A stretch of 21,868 bases of DNA from Frondihabitans sp. Lineage in GTDB: Bacteria; Actinomycetota; Actinomycetes; Actinomycetales; Microbacteriaceae. Location: positions 1 through 21,868 of the forward strand of contig JAODMX010000479.1 in the NCBI GenBank assembly GCA_025464735.1. Direction: 5' to 3'. The notes under the pieces were generated by a model, which searched no databases, was not told where the DNA came from, and saw only the letters and a program-made list of their open reading frames with translations. Within the stretch, counting starts at the first letter, position 1; each line of letters starts with the position of its first letter. The position numbers and the translations under genes were made by a program. Positions 10,810-19,031 of this stretch are shown here, piece after piece.

Positions 10810-11727
10810 TCAACTCGCCAAAGCGTGAACTTCGTCACGGGTGGGGTACGAGCCCTGGGCGCCTTCCTTCGTGGCGGCGAGGCTGCCGACTCGGACGGCG
10901 AACCGGGCGGCGTCGGCCAGGTCGTCGCCCGCGGCCAACCGGACGGCGAGGGCACCCATGAATGCGTCGCCGCAACCGGTCGTGTCGACCGCCGTGACGA
11001 CCGGAGAAGGCACGGCGACCGGAGGTGTGCCGCCATCGAAGACGACGCAACCGTCGGCACCCGTCGTGATGACGGCCCTGGCCACTCCTCGGGCGGCAAT
11101 CCCTCTGCCCACGGCCGCCGGGTCGTCCAGGGTCGCGCCGAGGAGCTGCGCGGCCTCGTGCTCGTTGACGAGGAGCACATCGGTGAGTCGAACGAGCTCG
11201 TCGGGCACTCGGTCGAGAGGCGAGAGGTTGGTCAGGATGGTCACGCCACGCTCGTGCGCGATGCGGGCCGCCGCGAGGACGACGTCGAGCGACACCTCGA
11301 GGCAGAGACCCAGGACCGCGGCTTGGTCGAAGGCGTCCGTCGTCAGGTCATCAGCCGTCAGAGTGCCGTTGGCGCCGGGCGAGACGATGATCGTGTTCTC
11401 GGCATGGGCGTCGACCGTAATGACCGCCGTGCCGGTCGCCACGGAGGGATCAACTCGCACGCGACCGGTGTCGACACCGGCGGTGCGGGCGGACGCCAGG
11501 AGCATCCTTCCGTTCTCGTCGTCACCGACAGCGCCGACGAGACGGACGTCGCCACCCAGGCGGGCGGCAGCGACGGCCTGATTCGCGCTCTTGCCACCCG
11601 GCAGAGTCTGCAGAGCCGAGCCGCGCAGCGTCTCACCGGGGCGTGGGAATCGTTCGACCCGCACGACGAGGTCCGCATTGAGCGACCCGACGATGACGAT
11701 GCCGCCCGCCACCGACGTGTTGCTCAT
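10810..11727 (-). CDS. rbsK: Ribokinase (PfkB family)
   Basis: A 305-residue sugar kinase that converts ribose to ribose 5-phosphate. The N-terminus IVIVGSLNADLVVRVERFPRPG and the first PfkB signature TLPGGKSANQAVAAARLGG are typical of ribokinase. So are VGDDENGRMLL and SPGANGTL. The second signature is DTTGCGDAFMGALA (248-261) with the catalytic base D254. Position 252 is Cys where GAGD is usual, a mild change in the anion hole. The start overlaps the nucleoside hydrolase stop by four bases (ATGA), so the two act together: free ribose from nucleoside cleavage is phosphorylated and enters the pentose phosphate pathway. No ribose transporter is adjacent. Confidence 0.92.
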   Translation of the reverse strand: MSNTSVAGGIVIVGSLNADLVVRVERFPRPGETLRGSALQTLPGGKSANQAVAAARLGGDVRLVGAVGDDENGRMLLASARTAGVDTGRVRVDPSVATGTAVITVDAHAENTIIVSPGANGTLTADDLTTDAFDQAAVLGLCLEVSLDVVLAAARIAHERGVTILTNLSPLDRVPDELVRLTDVLLVNEHEAAQLLGATLDDPAAVGRGIAARGVARAVITTGADGCVVFDGGTPPVAVPSPVVTAVDTTGCGDAFMGALAVRLAAGDDLADAARFAVRVGSLAATKEGAQGSYPTRDEVHALAS

Positions 11728-12677
11728 GCCGCCACTCCGCCCTCGCCGATCGCGGTGAGAGCGTCGGTGACAAGGCCCCAGAAACGCTCATGGTCGAGCG
11801 TCGTGGCTGCCGAGGTAGTGCAGTCGTCGGGCGCTGGCGCTCGGAAGTCGGCGACAGTCATGCCGAGAGTCAAGGTTCCGGTCAGCTCGATGTCGATCGG
11901 CACTTTGACCGTCTCGACGATCGTCGGGTCGATCACGTAGGCCACGGCGCAGGGGTCGTGCACGGGAGGCGAGTCGAAACCCTGTACCTCACGGTAGGTT
12001 CTGCCGAAGAACTCGAGGAGCTCGCCCACGAACCGCGAGGGCGCCGTGCCGACGGCGGCGATCTGCGCGGCGACCGCCGCGGTGGCGAGCGCCTGATGCG
12101 TCAGGTCGAGACCGACCATGACGACGGGCCAGCCGGCGTTGAAGACGATGTGCGCCGCCTCAGGGTCGATGGCGATGTTGAACTCGGCGACGGCGCTCCA
12201 GTTGCCGACGTGGTACCCGCCGCCCATGAGCACAACCTCCTGCACGAGTTCAACGAGGCGCGGTTCGCGGCGAACGGCCAGGGCCAGGTTGGTCATGGCG
12301 CCGGTGGCGACGAGGGTGACCGTGCCCGGCTCGCGCGATAGGACGGTGTCGATGATGACATCGACCGCGTGCCTCGGATCCAGTTCGAATGTCGGATCCG
12401 GAAGCACCGGCCCGTCGAGCCCGGACTCACCGTGGATGTCGGTTGGATGCTCGATCGTGCGAACGAGCGGACGGTCGGCCCCCGCGGCGAAGGGGACACC
12501 GGAGATGCCGGCGATCGCGGCTACGGACAGCGCGTTTCGCGTCACCTTCGCCAACGTCTGATTGCCGAAGACGGTGGTGACGGCGGCCAACTCGATACGC
12601 GGGTCGCCGTGCGCGAGAAGAAGCGCGACGGCATCGTCATGACCCGGGTCGCAGTCGAGGATGATCGTTCGTGCCAC
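11724..12677 (-). CDS. Inosine-uridine-type nucleoside hydrolase
   Basis: A 317-residue ribonucleoside hydrolase (IunH/Rih family) that splits nucleosides into base and ribose. The calcium-binding N-terminal cluster DCDPGHDD (8-15) is intact, as are HGESGLDG (82-89) and VLMGGGYHVGN. AEFNIAIDPEAA (164-175) and the late active-site PPVHDPCA with H240 and D241 are also present. The start is GTG at 12677, with GTGGAG just upstream (spacing four bases). It is the first gene of a two-gene salvage operon with ribokinase and is divergent from the SUKH-4-like gene. The base preference cannot be read from sequence. It is probably cytoplasmic, as no signal peptide is seen. Confidence 0.92.
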   Translation of the reverse strand: MARTIILDCDPGHDDAVALLLAHGDPRIELAAVTTVFGNQTLAKVTRNALSVAAIAGISGVPFAAGADRPLVRTIEHPTDIHGESGLDGPVLPDPTFELDPRHAVDVIIDTVLSREPGTVTLVATGAMTNLALAVRREPRLVELVQEVVLMGGGYHVGNWSAVAEFNIAIDPEAAHIVFNAGWPVVMVGLDLTHQALATAAVAAQIAAVGTAPSRFVGELLEFFGRTYREVQGFDSPPVHDPCAVAYVIDPTIVETVKVPIDIELTGTLTLGMTVADFRAPAPDDCTTSAATTLDHERFWGLVTDALTAIGEGGVAA

Positions 12678-12876: not shown

Positions 12877-13338
12877 GTGACAGCGAGCGACCCGCGGTTC
12901 GGCATCGAGCTCTACGAGGAGCCGGGCGACAGCCAGGACGTCGAGGGTGCGCCCATGACGCTCGTCGGCCACGTCTGGAGCAGGGACGCCGAGCGAATCG
13001 TCACGACAGCCACGGGCGCCGTGCTGATCGTCGACCCGGGCGGCACCAACCCGGCGCCTCTCAACAGCAGCCTCGAGGCGACCCGCGCCTTTCTGGAAGC
13101 ATTCCGCGTGTACTACGCAGGGCACCGGCCCGCCCCGGCACCCCCGATGACGCGCGACGAGGCCCGTGCCCGGCTCCGCGCTCTGCAGCGGGGCGAGCTG
13201 CCGAGCGAACCCGAGCCTGCACCGCCGATCGCGCAGCCCCTGCGCCTCGCGACCCTCACCACGCACCTCACCGCGATCGACCCTGCCGCGGTGACTCCCG
13301 GATCCTGGTGGTCCAGGATCCTGGAGCAGCTCACCTAG
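12877..13338 (+). CDS. SUKH-4-like small protein (putative orphan immunity protein)
   Basis: A 153-residue cytoplasmic protein. Residues about 30-85 carry VGHVWSRDAERIVTTATGAV, then LIVDPGG and LNSSLEATRAFLEAFRVYY. This order of a short strand, an N-S-S turn and a long helix is characteristic of the C-terminal half of SUKH-4 immunity domains. The extreme C-terminus (AIDPAAVTPGSWWSRILEQL) also fits that family. The middle (107-127) is a Pro/Glu-rich linker. SUKH proteins neutralise polymorphic nuclease toxins, but no toxin gene is adjacent, so this could be an orphan immunity gene or a housekeeping relative. The GTG start is chosen from the box at 12865; the frame is open further upstream without family similarity. 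The match was made by eye. Confidence 0.6.
   Translation: MTASDPRFGIELYEEPGDSQDVEGAPMTLVGHVWSRDAERIVTTATGAVLIVDPGGTNPAPLNSSLEATRAFLEAFRVYYAGHRPAPAPPMTRDEARARLRALQRGELPSEPEPAPPIAQPLRLATLTTHLTAIDPAAVTPGSWWSRILEQLT
13300..13321. repeat. 9-bp perfect stem-loop at the 3' end of the SUKH-4-like gene
   Basis: GGATCCTGG (13300-13308) and CCAGGATCC (13313-13321) pair perfectly around a TGGT loop, within the last coding codons. It may stabilise the 3' end or slow the polymerase; it could equally be a coding coincidence. Confidence 0.35.
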
Positions 13339-15521: not shown

Positions 15522-16770
15522 GGCGTACCCGTTCAGACAGCGCCCGCCGGTGCCCCGCCCGGACGAACACCCCCGTGACGAGCGCGCCGACGACGAGCAG
15601 CGCCGCGCTCAGCGCGATCAGGTGTCCGATGCCGAGCAGCGCCCCGAACACCCCGAGCGAGACGCCCCCGACGACACGGAATCCGCTCGAGAACATGCTG
15701 TAGACGCCGAGCACGCGACCGCGTTCGGCGGACGGTGCCTCGAGTTGCACGATGCTCTGACCGATCGAGGTCGAGGCGATGTTGGCGACTCCGCCGACGA
15801 CGAGGGCGACGACGGCCAGGAGGTAGCTGCCGGTCGAAGCGAAGATGAGCGTCGTTACTCCGAAGAGCGCCGTTGTCACGACGGCGGCGCGAGCGTTGGG
15901 TTTGATCACGCCGGTCGCCTCCAGCAGGAACCCGCCGACCACTCCACCGGCGCCGTTGGCGAAGAGCAGCACGCCGTAGGCCAGCCCCGCCGACCCCGCG
16001 CCGAGGGTGTTCGCAAAGACCGGCATCGAGGTCTGCAGCGCCCCGCCGATGAAGATCGCCGTCAGCGCGGCCAGCACCATCATGCTCATCAGGAGGCGAT
16101 CGGATCCCACCTTCCCCAGCACGCGCAGCGTGTCGAGCATCGTCAGCCGGGCCCGCGAGACGACGGCCTCCCGAGTGTGACCGGTGAACTTCGTGCGGAA
16201 GAGGAAGAGCGTCAACGGCAGGTAGAAGAGCACGTTCGTGAAGATGCCGGCGGTCGACCCGAGGCCGAGCAGGAGCGCCGACCCTACGACCGGGCCGAGC
16301 AGGACCCCGAGGCTCTTGAACGTGGCATTCAACCGAATCGCACTCGTCAGATCTCTACGACCGGCGAAGTCGTGCAGCATCAGCTGCTCCGCCGGCGACC
16401 ACATCGACCCGGCCATCCCGTGCATCACGAGCAGGACGCACGCCATCCAGACCTGGAGCGATCCGGTCGCGAAGAGGATGCCCCAGCTGACCGACACCAG
16501 CATGAACAGCACCTGCGCGCCCTGGATCAGTCGTCGGCAGTCGTAGCGTTCGGCGAGGGATCCGAACCAGATCGAGAGCAGCAGGAACGGCAACCAGTGG
16601 CTCACGACCTCGAACCCGACGAGGGTCGGCGAGTGGAACTTCTGCCAGAGCACCCAGTAGGTGATGACGTGCTCGACATTGTCGGCCATCATCGCAAGAC
16701 CGGCCCCGAAGAGGTAGGGGCGCGACTCACGGTTGCGAAGGGCAGCGAAGCGGAGGGGGATGTCGGTCAA
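15514..16770 (-). CDS. MFS transporter (EntS/MFS_3-like)
   Basis: A 418-residue integral membrane transporter of the major facilitator superfamily. About eleven or twelve hydrophobic segments are visible. The loop motif WFGSLAERYDCRRLIQGAQVLFM after the second helix corresponds to the family's conserved loop 2-3 motif, and NATFKSLGVLLGPVVGSAL to helix 5. These features fit the EntS-like group that exports siderophores, drugs or metabolites. The start is set at TTG 16770 because GGAG lies six bases before it and the phosphatase gene ends 20 bp upstream. A start at 16830 would overlap that gene by 40 bases and add an Arg-rich tail. It is probably co-transcribed with the phosphatase. The substrate is unknown. 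Confidence 0.88.
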   Translation of the reverse strand: MTDIPLRFAALRNRESRPYLFGAGLAMMADNVEHVITYWVLWQKFHSPTLVGFEVVSHWLPFLLLSIWFGSLAERYDCRRLIQGAQVLFMLVSVSWGILFATGSLQVWMACVLLVMHGMAGSMWSPAEQLMLHDFAGRRDLTSAIRLNATFKSLGVLLGPVVGSALLLGLGSTAGIFTNVLFYLPLTLFLFRTKFTGHTREAVVSRARLTMLDTLRVLGKVGSDRLLMSMMVLAALTAIFIGGALQTSMPVFANTLGAGSAGLAYGVLLFANGAGGVVGGFLLEATGVIKPNARAAVVTTALFGVTTLIFASTGSYLLAVVALVVGGVANIASTSIGQSIVQLEAPSAERGRVLGVYSMFSSGFRVVGGVSLGVFGALLGIGHLIALSAALLVVGALVTGVFVRAGHRRALSERVRPS

Positions 16771-16790
16771 TGAATGCTCCGGGCGGGCCG

Positions 16791-17447
16791 TCAGAGCCGG
16801 TCGATCTCGGCGTCGTCGAGCCCGACCCAACGCAGGTATCCGCGCACGGATCCGAAGCGCTCCTCAACATGCTGGACCACGTGAATCGCCGTCTCGGGCA
16901 CGCAGCGATGCATCCGCCTCGTGTAGTCGAGGTCGGTCGACTCGGCGACCTCCCGGCGGAACCGGTCGACGAGCGCGGGCCCGGTCGCCGCGTAATCGGC
17001 GCCGATCGCGTCGAGGTCGGCTCCCCAGAGGCGGGCCAGGAACGCACTGACGATTCCGGTGCGGTCCTTCCCCGCCGAACAGCAGACGAGCACATCACCA
17101 TCGGTCGCGGCAACGGCGCGAAAGACGTCGCCGATCGTGCGGCGGTGACGCTCCAGCCAGTCGACGTACTGCCCCTCGAGCTCGAGGGCGTCGAGGGCGG
17201 TGTCATAAGGGATCAACGGGTCGAAGAGCGGAACGGGCCGATAGCCGAGAGTCGCAGCCAGCGGGTGTTCGAGCGCGCGGATCTCGTCATCGCGGCGAAG
17301 GTCGATCACGGTCTCGACCGAGGCGGGGTACGCGCCCGGCTCGACGTCTTCGGTGTTGGAGCGGAACACGGTGCGTCTGCGGCCGGCCTGCAGGCCGGGG
17401 CCGCCGACTTCGCGAAGATTAGTGAGGGTTGGGGACGGCGACGTCAT
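16791..17447 (-). CDS. Tyrosine-protein phosphatase (PtpB-like)
   Basis: A 218-residue phosphatase of the bacterial tyrosine/serine phosphatase group. LREVGGPGL (11-19), VFRSNTED and TVIDLRRDDEI (46-56) are the usual N-terminal landmarks. The P-loop C-x5-R is CSAGKDRTG with nucleophile C123 and R129, and the later VDRFRREV region holds lid residues. The residue before the nucleophile is Cys 122 instead of the usual His, which normally tunes the nucleophile's pKa. Adjacent cysteines could form a redox-sensitive pair. It shares a 69-bp divergent promoter region with the ammonia-lyase homologue and precedes the MFS gene by 20 bp. The ATG at 17447 has no obvious ribosome site. The substrate could be a phosphoprotein or a phosphoinositide-like compound. 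Confidence 0.87.
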   Translation of the reverse strand: MTSPSPTLTNLREVGGPGLQAGRRRTVFRSNTEDVEPGAYPASVETVIDLRRDDEIRALEHPLAATLGYRPVPLFDPLIPYDTALDALELEGQYVDWLERHRRTIGDVFRAVAATDGDVLVCCSAGKDRTGIVSAFLARLWGADLDAIGADYAATGPALVDRFRREVAESTDLDYTRRMHRCVPETAIHVVQHVEERFGSVRGYLRWVGLDDAEIDRL

Positions 17448-17503
17448 GAGATCGAGTCAAGCACAGGATCCGGGCCGGTCCGGGCGCGACGAGTGCGCTT
17501 GAG

Positions 17504-17509
17504 TAGCGT
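17504..17509 (+). promoter_or_regulatory. -10 box (TAGCGT) of a probable leaderless promoter for the ammonia-lyase homologue
   Basis: TAGCGT ends seven bases before the GTG at 17517. No Shine-Dalgarno sequence is present. The same hexamer occurs at 19083 before the DedA gene. Confidence 0.45.
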
Positions 17510-17516
17510 TGGCCCG

Positions 17517-19031
17517 GTGAGTAGAGACCCGTTCGTCGTCGATCACCCGGCCGATCTCGACGCGCTCGCCTGCCTCCGGGTGGCGGAGGGTCGCCGTCTC
17601 CGCCTCGGGGAACGACTCCTAGCGGACCTCCGGGCCGGACGCAGCGCACTGCTCGAGCGGCTCGAAACCGGCGACGCCGTCTACGGGGTGACCACGGGGA
17701 TGGGAGCGTCGAGCACGATCCGCCTCGACCCCGACGCCCAGGCAGCACACCAGCAGAACCTCATGCGTGCCCGGTCGGTCGGCTCGGCGCCGTGGCTCGA
17801 CGCACGGGAGACCCGGGCCGCAGTGGTCGTGCGGCTGCGCACCCTGCTCAACCCGGAGGCGGGGGTGTCGGCCGAGCTCTGCGAGCGTCTGGTGGAGCTC
17901 CTGAACCGCGACGTGCATCCTGCGATTCCGTCCACGCGGCTCGGAGCGGCCGGCGAGATCATTCCGCTCGCCCACCTCGGTGCTGTCATCACCGGCGAAG
18001 GCGAATGCCTGGGCGAGGCCGGGGTCATCGCAGCTGCCGCCGCCCTCCGCGATGCGGGGCTCGACCGGTTCCGGCTCGGGCCGAAGGAGGGCGTCGCGCT
18101 CATCGAGGGGGTTCCGGTCACCACCGGACTTGCTCTGCTGCGAGCGCAGGAGGCACGACGGCTCGTCGCTCAGGTCACCGCCGCTCTGGCCGCCGAGCTC
18201 CGGCTCGTGGGTGCGAGTCGTGACCCGTTCCAGTCGGAGCTGGCCCGTGAGGATCCGGAGTTGGCGATCATCCTCGCCGACATTCGGCGGCTTGCCGGGG
18301 AGGAGACCATGCCGTCCGCCCTGCAGGCGCCGCTGTCGTTCCGCGTGGTCGGCCCGGCGCTGGCCCAGGTGCTGCGGGCGACGTCGGCCGTCGACGCGGC
18401 GCTTCACCGCGCCCTCGCCGGAGTCACCGACTCCCCCGCTTTCCTCGACGGAGCCTTCGTCGGGACGGCCGGCTTCGACGGTTTCGACCTCGCGGGCGCG
18501 CTCGACGGCCTTCGTGTGGCGACGGTGCACGTGGCCGAGGTGGGCGCCGCGCGACTGCACCGGCTGCTCGACGACCGCGTCACCGACCTGCCACGGCAGC
18601 TCTCCGATCGGCCGGGGCTGGATGCCGGGATGGTCACGGTGCACAAGCGGGCCGCAGGCGTCGTCCACGAGCTCGTCCGCAACGCGCAGCCGGCGAGTCT
18701 TGGCGCTATCGAGACGTCGCTCGGCCAGGAGGACGTCCAGTCGTTCTCGGTCGAGGCTGCGGTGGCGCTGGCTCACGCGCTCGACGGGGCACGCGATGTG
18801 CTGGCCTGTGAGCTGCTCGCGGTCGTGCACGGTCGTCGACTTGCCGTCGGGCGCGACGACGTCGGGCGCGACGACGTCGGGGGCGGGGCCGTCGGGGGCG
18901 GGGCCGTCGGGGCGCCCGTCGACGCCCTGATCGACCGGCTCGACGCGATCCTTCCGGCCGGAACGTCCGACCGGCCCTTCGGCCGCGACATCGTGGCGAT
19001 CCTCGACGTGCTCGACGAGGGGTGGGGATAA
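17517..19031 (+). CDS. Histidine/phenylalanine ammonia-lyase homologue lacking the MIO triad
   Basis: A 504-residue member of the aromatic amino acid lyase family, near the normal length for bacterial HAL. The fold is recognisable: AVYGVTTGMG (54-63), QQNLMRARSVG, GAAGEIIPLAHLGAVITGEGE, PKEGVALIEG, and QPASLGAIETSLGQEDVQSFS. Active-site changes are striking. The Ala-Ser-Gly that cyclises to the MIO electrophile is Ala144-Ala145-Gly146. The usual Asn in the ALxNG motif is Glu197. The His after QxNL is Arg. The Tyr of the QDxYSLR motif is Leu273, while its Arg (276) and the Glu of QED (405) remain. It is therefore unlikely to be a classical lyase and may bind a ligand or catalyse something else. 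A 5-residue repeat lies near 446-465. The GTG start is set by TAGCGT. Confidence 0.85.
   Translation: MSRDPFVVDHPADLDALACLRVAEGRRLRLGERLLADLRAGRSALLERLETGDAVYGVTTGMGASSTIRLDPDAQAAHQQNLMRARSVGSAPWLDARETRAAVVVRLRTLLNPEAGVSAELCERLVELLNRDVHPAIPSTRLGAAGEIIPLAHLGAVITGEGECLGEAGVIAAAAALRDAGLDRFRLGPKEGVALIEGVPVTTGLALLRAQEARRLVAQVTAALAAELRLVGASRDPFQSELAREDPELAIILADIRRLAGEETMPSALQAPLSFRVVGPALAQVLRATSAVDAALHRALAGVTDSPAFLDGAFVGTAGFDGFDLAGALDGLRVATVHVAEVGAARLHRLLDDRVTDLPRQLSDRPGLDAGMVTVHKRAAGVVHELVRNAQPASLGAIETSLGQEDVQSFSVEAAVALAHALDGARDVLACELLAVVHGRRLAVGRDDVGRDDVGGGAVGGGAVGAPVDALIDRLDAILPAGTSDRPFGRDIVAILDVLDEGWG
18846..18905 (+). repeat. Four in-frame 15-bp tandem repeats inside the ammonia-lyase homologue
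   Basis: Two copies of GTCGGGCGCGACGAC are followed by two of GTCGGGGGCGGGGCC, with a partial fifth unit after 18905. They encode VGRDD twice, then VGGGA twice. All four share the GTCGGG head. The block lies between the last conserved helix and the C-terminal helices, as a flexible linker. Its length is a multiple of three, so copy-number change would preserve the frame. Confidence 0.75.

Follow-up and report, generated by a model that had tools for sequence, protein, structure and literature searches.

A conserved actinobacterial subfamily of the ammonia-lyase fold without the MIO-forming serine

Introduction

What becomes of an ammonia-lyase when the serine from which its cofactor is built has gone? 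The question is raised by a gene at positions 17517..19031 (forward strand) of a 21,868-nucleotide stretch of Frondihabitans sp. DNA (GenBank assembly GCA_025464735.1, contig JAODMX010000479.1), to which, at its full length, we refer as the window. Its predicted product, here called lyase A, belongs to the aromatic amino acid lyase family PF00221 and carries Ala-Ala-Gly in place of the Ala-Ser-Gly (ASG) from which histidine ammonia-lyase (HAL) forms its 4-methylideneimidazol-5-one (MIO) electrophile. A first-pass annotation, made from the letters of the window alone, had proposed that the frame encodes a new function rather than a decaying enzyme, and that it may belong to a distinct actinobacterial subfamily. 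Such a subfamily does emerge from our comparisons: it is monophyletic in Actinomycetes, and Ala-Ala-Gly (AAG) and most of the companion changes are fixed in it. We weigh below what its members might do, including the evenly balanced proposal that they are MIO-independent C-N lyases for an ergothioneine-family betaine.

Results

A lyase frame with a remodeled active site

The frame translates into 504 amino acids with no internal stop, from a GTG start that is likely the true one to judge by the similar lengths of the homologues listed. PF00221 matches the protein with 304 bits against a cutoff of 27.3; this score was taken on a longer frame (16770-19031), in which the match spans residues 269-691 and so falls inside 17517..19031. 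The HutH family TIGR01225 reaches 222.6 bits, below its cutoff of 539.15. Lyase A shares its domain and fold with HutH (PF00221; 7tqr, 1gkj) but has no equivalents of the MIO serine, Asp145, Asn195, His83, or Tyr280, where HAL residue numbers, here and below, are those that we take to correspond to the window positions.

At the MIO site the window protein reads GAAGEII where HAL has GASGDLA, and translation confirms Ala144-Ala145-Gly146 at 17946..17954 (this and all following codons are on the forward strand). Asp145 and Asn195 of HAL assist the MIO. In their places lyase A holds Glu147 (17955..17957), a replacement beyond those in the first-pass annotation, and Glu197 (18105..18107). Set beside the MIO-dependent HALs, phenylalanine and tyrosine ammonia-lyases (PAL and TAL), and aminomutases, it therefore has the PF00221 domain and neither the triad serine nor the Asp145/Asn195 pair. 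Two further substitutions pointed out earlier also stand in translation and alignment: Arg86 (17772..17774) at the position of His83, and Leu273 (18333..18335), within the segment LQAPLSFR, at that of Tyr280. The residues said to persist do so, namely Tyr56 (17682..17684; Tyr53 in HAL), Arg276 (18342..18344), presumably the carboxylate-binding arginine of the family, and Glu405 (18729..18731; Glu414 in HAL). A His376-Lys377 pair (18642..18647) is specific to the subfamily and reads Gln-Tyr in the canonical HAL of locus L054. That the serine is needed for both MIO and activity, as had been stated, is seen in a related enzyme: in Rubrobacter PAL, the S153A variant lost its MIO absorbance and practically all of its activity (PMC3903478).

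Conservation, phylogeny, and selection

At E≤1e-20 a protein search yielded 1536 homologues, and residues were counted in the best 120 of them. A genome scan gave 56 loci; setting aside L054 and three loci with no clean frame (L011, L052, and L053) left 52 genome orthologues. Alanine occupies position 145 in all 52 and in 112 of the best 120 database homologues, the remainder being six Ser, one Thr, and one gap. The first-pass annotation had named orthologues with ASG and a single altered strain as the finding that would speak against it; we found the opposite. Tyr56, Arg276, and Glu405 are invariant in both sets (52/52 and 120/120 each), and Arg86 (52/52 and 118/120), Glu147 (51/52 and 119/120), and both His376 and Lys377 (each 51/52 and 120/120) are close to it; His348 and Gln408, like Lys377, are nearly invariant. 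Position 197, in contrast to position 145, is variable, with E 37, A 9, Q 5, and G 1 among the genome orthologues and E 88 and Q 32 among the best 120, so that of the two features whose conservation had been put up for checking, AAG is kept and Glu197 is not fixed. Position 273 is V in 46, L in 5, and T in 1 of the genome orthologues. Many of the best 120 homologues bear the name histidine ammonia-lyase in their source records.

In a tree of 69 rows, all 37 lyase A rows, the window's included, lie on one side of a single branch (support 97/95). One row, L073, was entered in the wrong frame (its proper frame encodes a canonical HAL), and the rooting as drawn is distorted by it. P0004 is the window's sister row, and Arthrobacter and Microbacteriaceae rows are close by.

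Six of the best 120 homologues (P0012, P0013, P0032, P0041, P0042, and P0093) carry Ser145, yet their Glu147, Glu or Gln197, and Lys377 are unchanged; they amount to a natural experiment on whether ASG is by itself enough for MIO. Because P0012, P0032, P0041, and P0093 nest at two separate places within the lyase A clade, Ser145 looks regained or tolerated rather than ancestral in these proteins.

The ratio of nonsynonymous to synonymous substitution rates (dN/dS) was 0.10-0.32 in four close lyase A pairs; comparing the window gene with two orthologues gave 0.28 and 0.42. By these sequence measures lyase A is a functional family under purifying selection. A canonical HAL, with ASG or CSG, was seen separately in 18 of the 25 lyase A genomes examined. 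Since AAG is fixed in a monophyletic subfamily under purifying selection, and a separate HAL is present in most of these genomes, neither decay nor a single-strain mutation accounts for the change, and the earlier view of an altered function gains support.

A recurrent island and its cyclodeaminase gene

Neighborhoods of 57 sequences (the 56 loci and the window) were annotated with a simple gene caller of our own and then clustered. An island recurs among them that comprises an RpiR-type regulator, a cyclodeaminase-family gene, lyase A, a LacI-type regulator, a gene of ~295 amino acids, a cysteine-dioxygenase-like gene, a second lyase (lyase B), an ATP-binding cassette (ABC) ATPase, two permeases, and an OpuAC binding protein.

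The cyclodeaminase-family gene lies directly upstream of lyase A on the same strand in at least 44 of the 57 sequences, a lower bound because the gene caller missed at least one (at L002; it is seen beside the lyase in L089). In all 44 its end falls in a range from 234 bases before the start of the lyase match to 6 bases beyond it. The gene was found in 19 of the 25 lyase A genomes, with 69-94% identity among genomes, and no match at E≤1e-40 was found in the other 6. Among NCBIfam families it scores best against archaeal alanine dehydrogenase, though short of that family's cutoff.

Smaller arrangements also occur. The cyclodeaminase gene, lyase A, and a transporter form compact loci in L015, L047, L038, and L022; lyase A and a transporter stand without the cyclodeaminase in L034, L043, and L127, as they do in L006 with a LacI-type gene in between; and the neighbors in L033 are an Opp/Dpp-type transporter set, which L056 resembles by gene order only. 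In the compact Streptomyces operon of L015, the OpuAC gene (G007:C9:235584-236423) matches in two pieces, one with an internal stop, which could reflect a sequencing error or a disrupted gene.

Ergothioneine-dioxygenase homologues in the island

The profile of the island's dioxygenase-like gene scored 261-265 bits against seven PDB entries (8qfl to 8qfr, with 8qfl at 265), all titled ergothioneine dioxygenase from Thermocatellispora tengchongensis, and at most 37 bits against other cysteine dioxygenases. Its predicted model was poor (predicted local distance difference test score 51) and served solely for reading PDB entry titles. This enzyme is unrelated in fold to lyase A; its homologue is a neighbor of lyase A orthologues, and differs from the window gene.

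The ~295-residue product has no Pfam match and shows weak likeness to metal-dependent hydrolases and decarboxylases (E 0.003-0.02). A metal-dependent desulfinase reportedly converts ergothioneine sulfinate to trimethylhistidine, according to a 2024 paper, and the ~295-residue protein would be a natural candidate for this step. The two genes lie side by side in every one of the 19 mapped dioxygenase loci (L126 and L128-L145), which comprise 17 of 24 class-wide hits plus G018 and G008.

A strong dioxygenase match (at least 226 bits) was present in 13 of the 25 lyase A genomes, and the same 13 carry the ~295-residue partner; nine further genomes have weak or partial matches only. These co-occurrence counts come from related genomes. 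In a class-wide sample of 394 genomes, the dioxygenase was found at E≤1e-50 in at least 24 and lyase A in at least four: G001, G011, G103 (full island, L126), and G053 (transporter only, L127). Both counts are lower bounds, with eight dioxygenase and three lyase A candidates scored per genome, and both include the centre, G001.

Lyase B and urocanase

Lyase B (for example, L025:4518-5954) is a second PF00221 paralogue that shares the islands and the lack of ASG with lyase A, reading mostly IGTGDL or IGTADL. It differs in its HAL-like His86 (the His83 equivalent, kept in 25 of 29 rows, the other four being gaps), in an E-E/D-H motif, and in forming its own clade (100/100). It also adjoins the ergothioneine-dioxygenase pair in three loci in which we found no lyase A (L129, L131, and L132). 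Of the 25 genomes, 14 show HAL together with both lyase A and lyase B. Lyase B was recognized in 16 genomes, every one of which has a urocanase match. Given the retained His83 equivalent and this co-occurrence, lyase B appears a better candidate than lyase A for converting trimethylhistidine to urocanate.

Among the lyase A genomes, urocanase matched in 21 of 25. No match was found in G010 (Blastococcus), G012 (Kineococcus), G015 (Marisediminicola), or G021 (a metagenome-assembled genome), all drafts and all keeping lyase A. Lyase A is the sole PF00221 match in G010, G012, and G015, and also in G020, which has urocanase. The three named isolates among these have lyase A but no urocanase match, which makes a simple feed of lyase A into the histidine utilization (Hut) pathway less likely. 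Lyase A probably acts instead on ergothioneine itself or an oxidized form, or on another substrate together with the cyclodeaminase. In the open-access literature, which leaves most subscription papers outside the search, we found no description of the lyase A subfamily or of a trimethylhistidine lyase.

The binding-protein pocket

Twenty-four island binding proteins (22 of them complete at every position compared) were compared with the ergothioneine-binding residues of EgtUC (PMC9732360). Those residues are mostly not kept: Asn339 and Tyr341 are replaced by Asp, and Tyr443 by Glu or Gln, while Glu375 and Arg379 remain. The idea of an ordinary betaine transporter is weakened by these losses. 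As a control, OpuAC proteins were sought at 25 of 30 loci; eight loci had no hit and were dropped, nine were island or lyase-adjacent, and eight were others. Five of these eight others, from the same genomes, keep the usual Asn-Thr-Tyr plus Tyr cage and three do not, one of the three (L168) partly resembling the island pocket.

A near-identical pocket occurs beside lyase A alone (L006, L034, L043, and L127), beside the dioxygenase where lyase A was not found (L133, and partly L131), and in full islands; in this comparison L015 and L047 had no letters at the pocket positions. Since the pockets are so alike in these settings, the lyase A and the dioxygenase gene sets probably share one imported compound.

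Comparison with ergothionase and other PF00221 types

Loss of the MIO is not in itself new to this fold: ergothionase is already without it (PMC13405746). We compared lyase A with ergothionase by fold, by overall sequence scores, and by the lack of the MIO serine. The two share a HAL fold that lacks this serine, and the predicted lyase A model aligned structurally with the Treponema denticola enzyme (6s7j) at 21% identity.

Other members of the family have also departed from ASG. Among plasmid homologues, L059 and L061 are canonical HALs, and L057, L058, and L060 are other types without ASG. One such type is found on Sinorhizobium plasmids (L058:3893-5386 and L060), with GSAGYLTH in L058, where it lies next to an ABC transporter set, a repressor of HutC type, and a gene that carries the annotation solA (N-methyl-L-tryptophan oxidase). 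Another, in L057 (Sinorhizobium meliloti pSymA) and L119 (Geodermatophilaceae), has GQADM or GAADL for GASGDL and a V-E-D-x-G-T-x-A-P motif; the N-terminus of L057 resembles, by eye, a signal peptide. From these motifs it seems that MIO has been lost several times in PF00221.

Other genes in the window

The window's lyase A gene is flanked by a major facilitator superfamily protein, a tyrosine-phosphatase-family gene, a DedA/VTT protein, and a two-component pair. On the reverse strand, 10810-12677 holds a ribokinase-like gene and a uridine-preferring nucleoside hydrolase (UriH, above the NCBIfam cutoff), together an ordinary pair for nucleoside salvage, with a 4-base overlap. A SUKH-4 immunity-domain protein (40.8 bits) is encoded at 12877-13338 on the forward strand, and no toxin gene was recognized among the genes scanned.

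Discussion

Of the two alternatives that the first-pass annotation had left standing, an eliminase is the one favored by the sequences and ligand binding appears less likely, because the carboxylate arginine, Tyr, and Glu are kept and the new Lys and His are nearly invariant. The likeliest mechanism is an amine elimination that needs no MIO; whether lyase A is such a MIO-independent C-N lyase for an ergothioneine-family betaine we consider about evenly poised. The proposal builds on the family assignment and fold model, the fixed AAG with its companion changes under purifying selection, the cyclodeaminase neighbor, and the linkage to dioxygenase and transporter genes in many orthologues. The substrate would be ergothioneine itself or an oxidized or desulfurized derivative, from which acid/base catalysis would expel the alpha-amine in the form of trimethylamine. 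The carboxylate would be bound by Arg276, and abstraction of the beta proton and stabilization of the ring would fall to Tyr56 and Glu405, possibly aided by Lys377 and Arg86. No MIO would be required, since the quaternary trimethylammonium is a leaving group in its own right, just as for ergothionase.

Several observations weigh against this proposal. The island, the dioxygenase, its partner genes, and the cyclodeaminase are all absent from the window's 21.9 kb, and neither a strong dioxygenase match nor the partner was found in 12 of the 25 lyase A genomes (the match in G025 being cut by a contig end). The cyclodeaminase, present in 19 of the 25, has no obvious step to perform after trimethylamine is lost. 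The island binding protein has dropped the aromatic cage by which EgtUC holds trimethylammonium, which leaves room for an imported ligand other than a betaine. Finally, HAL is nearer to lyase A than ergothionase is, both overall (163 bits for 7tqr versus 92) and in the C-terminal active-site part (52-61 bits for HALs versus 30).

More tentatively, and somewhat short of an even chance, lyase A could be the first step of an undescribed, urocanase-independent branch for the catabolism of ergothioneine or related betaines in Actinomycetes, with a cyclodeaminase-family redox partner and a transporter of altered pocket; the HAL fold would have lost MIO on several separate occasions, possibly each time the substrate came with a leaving group of its own.

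The best-surviving rival, which we rate as possible though on the whole unlikely, is that lyase A is a MIO-free eliminase for some other imported amino-acid-like substrate, the resulting imine or enamine being reduced or oxidized by the cyclodeaminase-family enzyme, and that the ergothioneine genes are linked to it only through shared transport or regulation. The tight placement of the well-conserved cyclodeaminase, its leaning toward alanine dehydrogenase, and a pocket with no quaternary-ammonium cage all suit this explanation, as do the Opp/Dpp-type set of L033 (matched in L056 by gene order only) and three genomes (G010, G012, and G015) that have lyase A and the transporter with no match to the dioxygenase, HAL, a second lyase, or urocanase. 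It fits less well with the same class of binding protein standing beside the ergothioneine-dioxygenase homologue where no lyase A was found, and with the cyclodeaminase being unmatched in 6 of 25 genomes and missing from the window.

A lyase for trimethylhistidine (hercynine), passing urocanate to Hut after the dioxygenase and desulfinase steps, is improbable: the content of the island and the retained Arg and Glu of the HAL pocket would agree with it, but G010, G012, G015, and G021 have lyase A with no urocanase match, and lyase B suits the role better. More improbable still is a noncatalytic protein that binds a ligand or assists, for example, the cyclodeaminase; loss of MIO and the variable residue 197 could be read this way, but the catalytic Tyr, Arg, and Glu are invariant, and lyase A also occurs where there is no cyclodeaminase. 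Scarcely credible is a decaying or mis-sequenced HAL, or a MIO enzyme after all, since the few ASG homologues that might suggest it keep Glu147 and Glu or Gln197, the four of them that the tree includes branch within the AAG clade, and orthologue counts, tree, and dN/dS led us to reject decay or a one-strain mutation.

The ammonia-lyase fold is a textbook example of an enzyme that makes its own cofactor, and a subfamily in which loss of this cofactor is fixed on a kept scaffold illustrates how such a scaffold is re-used. It also shows how easily a protein such as lyase A is misannotated as histidine ammonia-lyase. Ergothioneine is an antioxidant that animals obtain from their diet, and the island around the window gene's relatives provides a concrete, testable gene set for its possible uptake and breakdown by soil actinobacteria.
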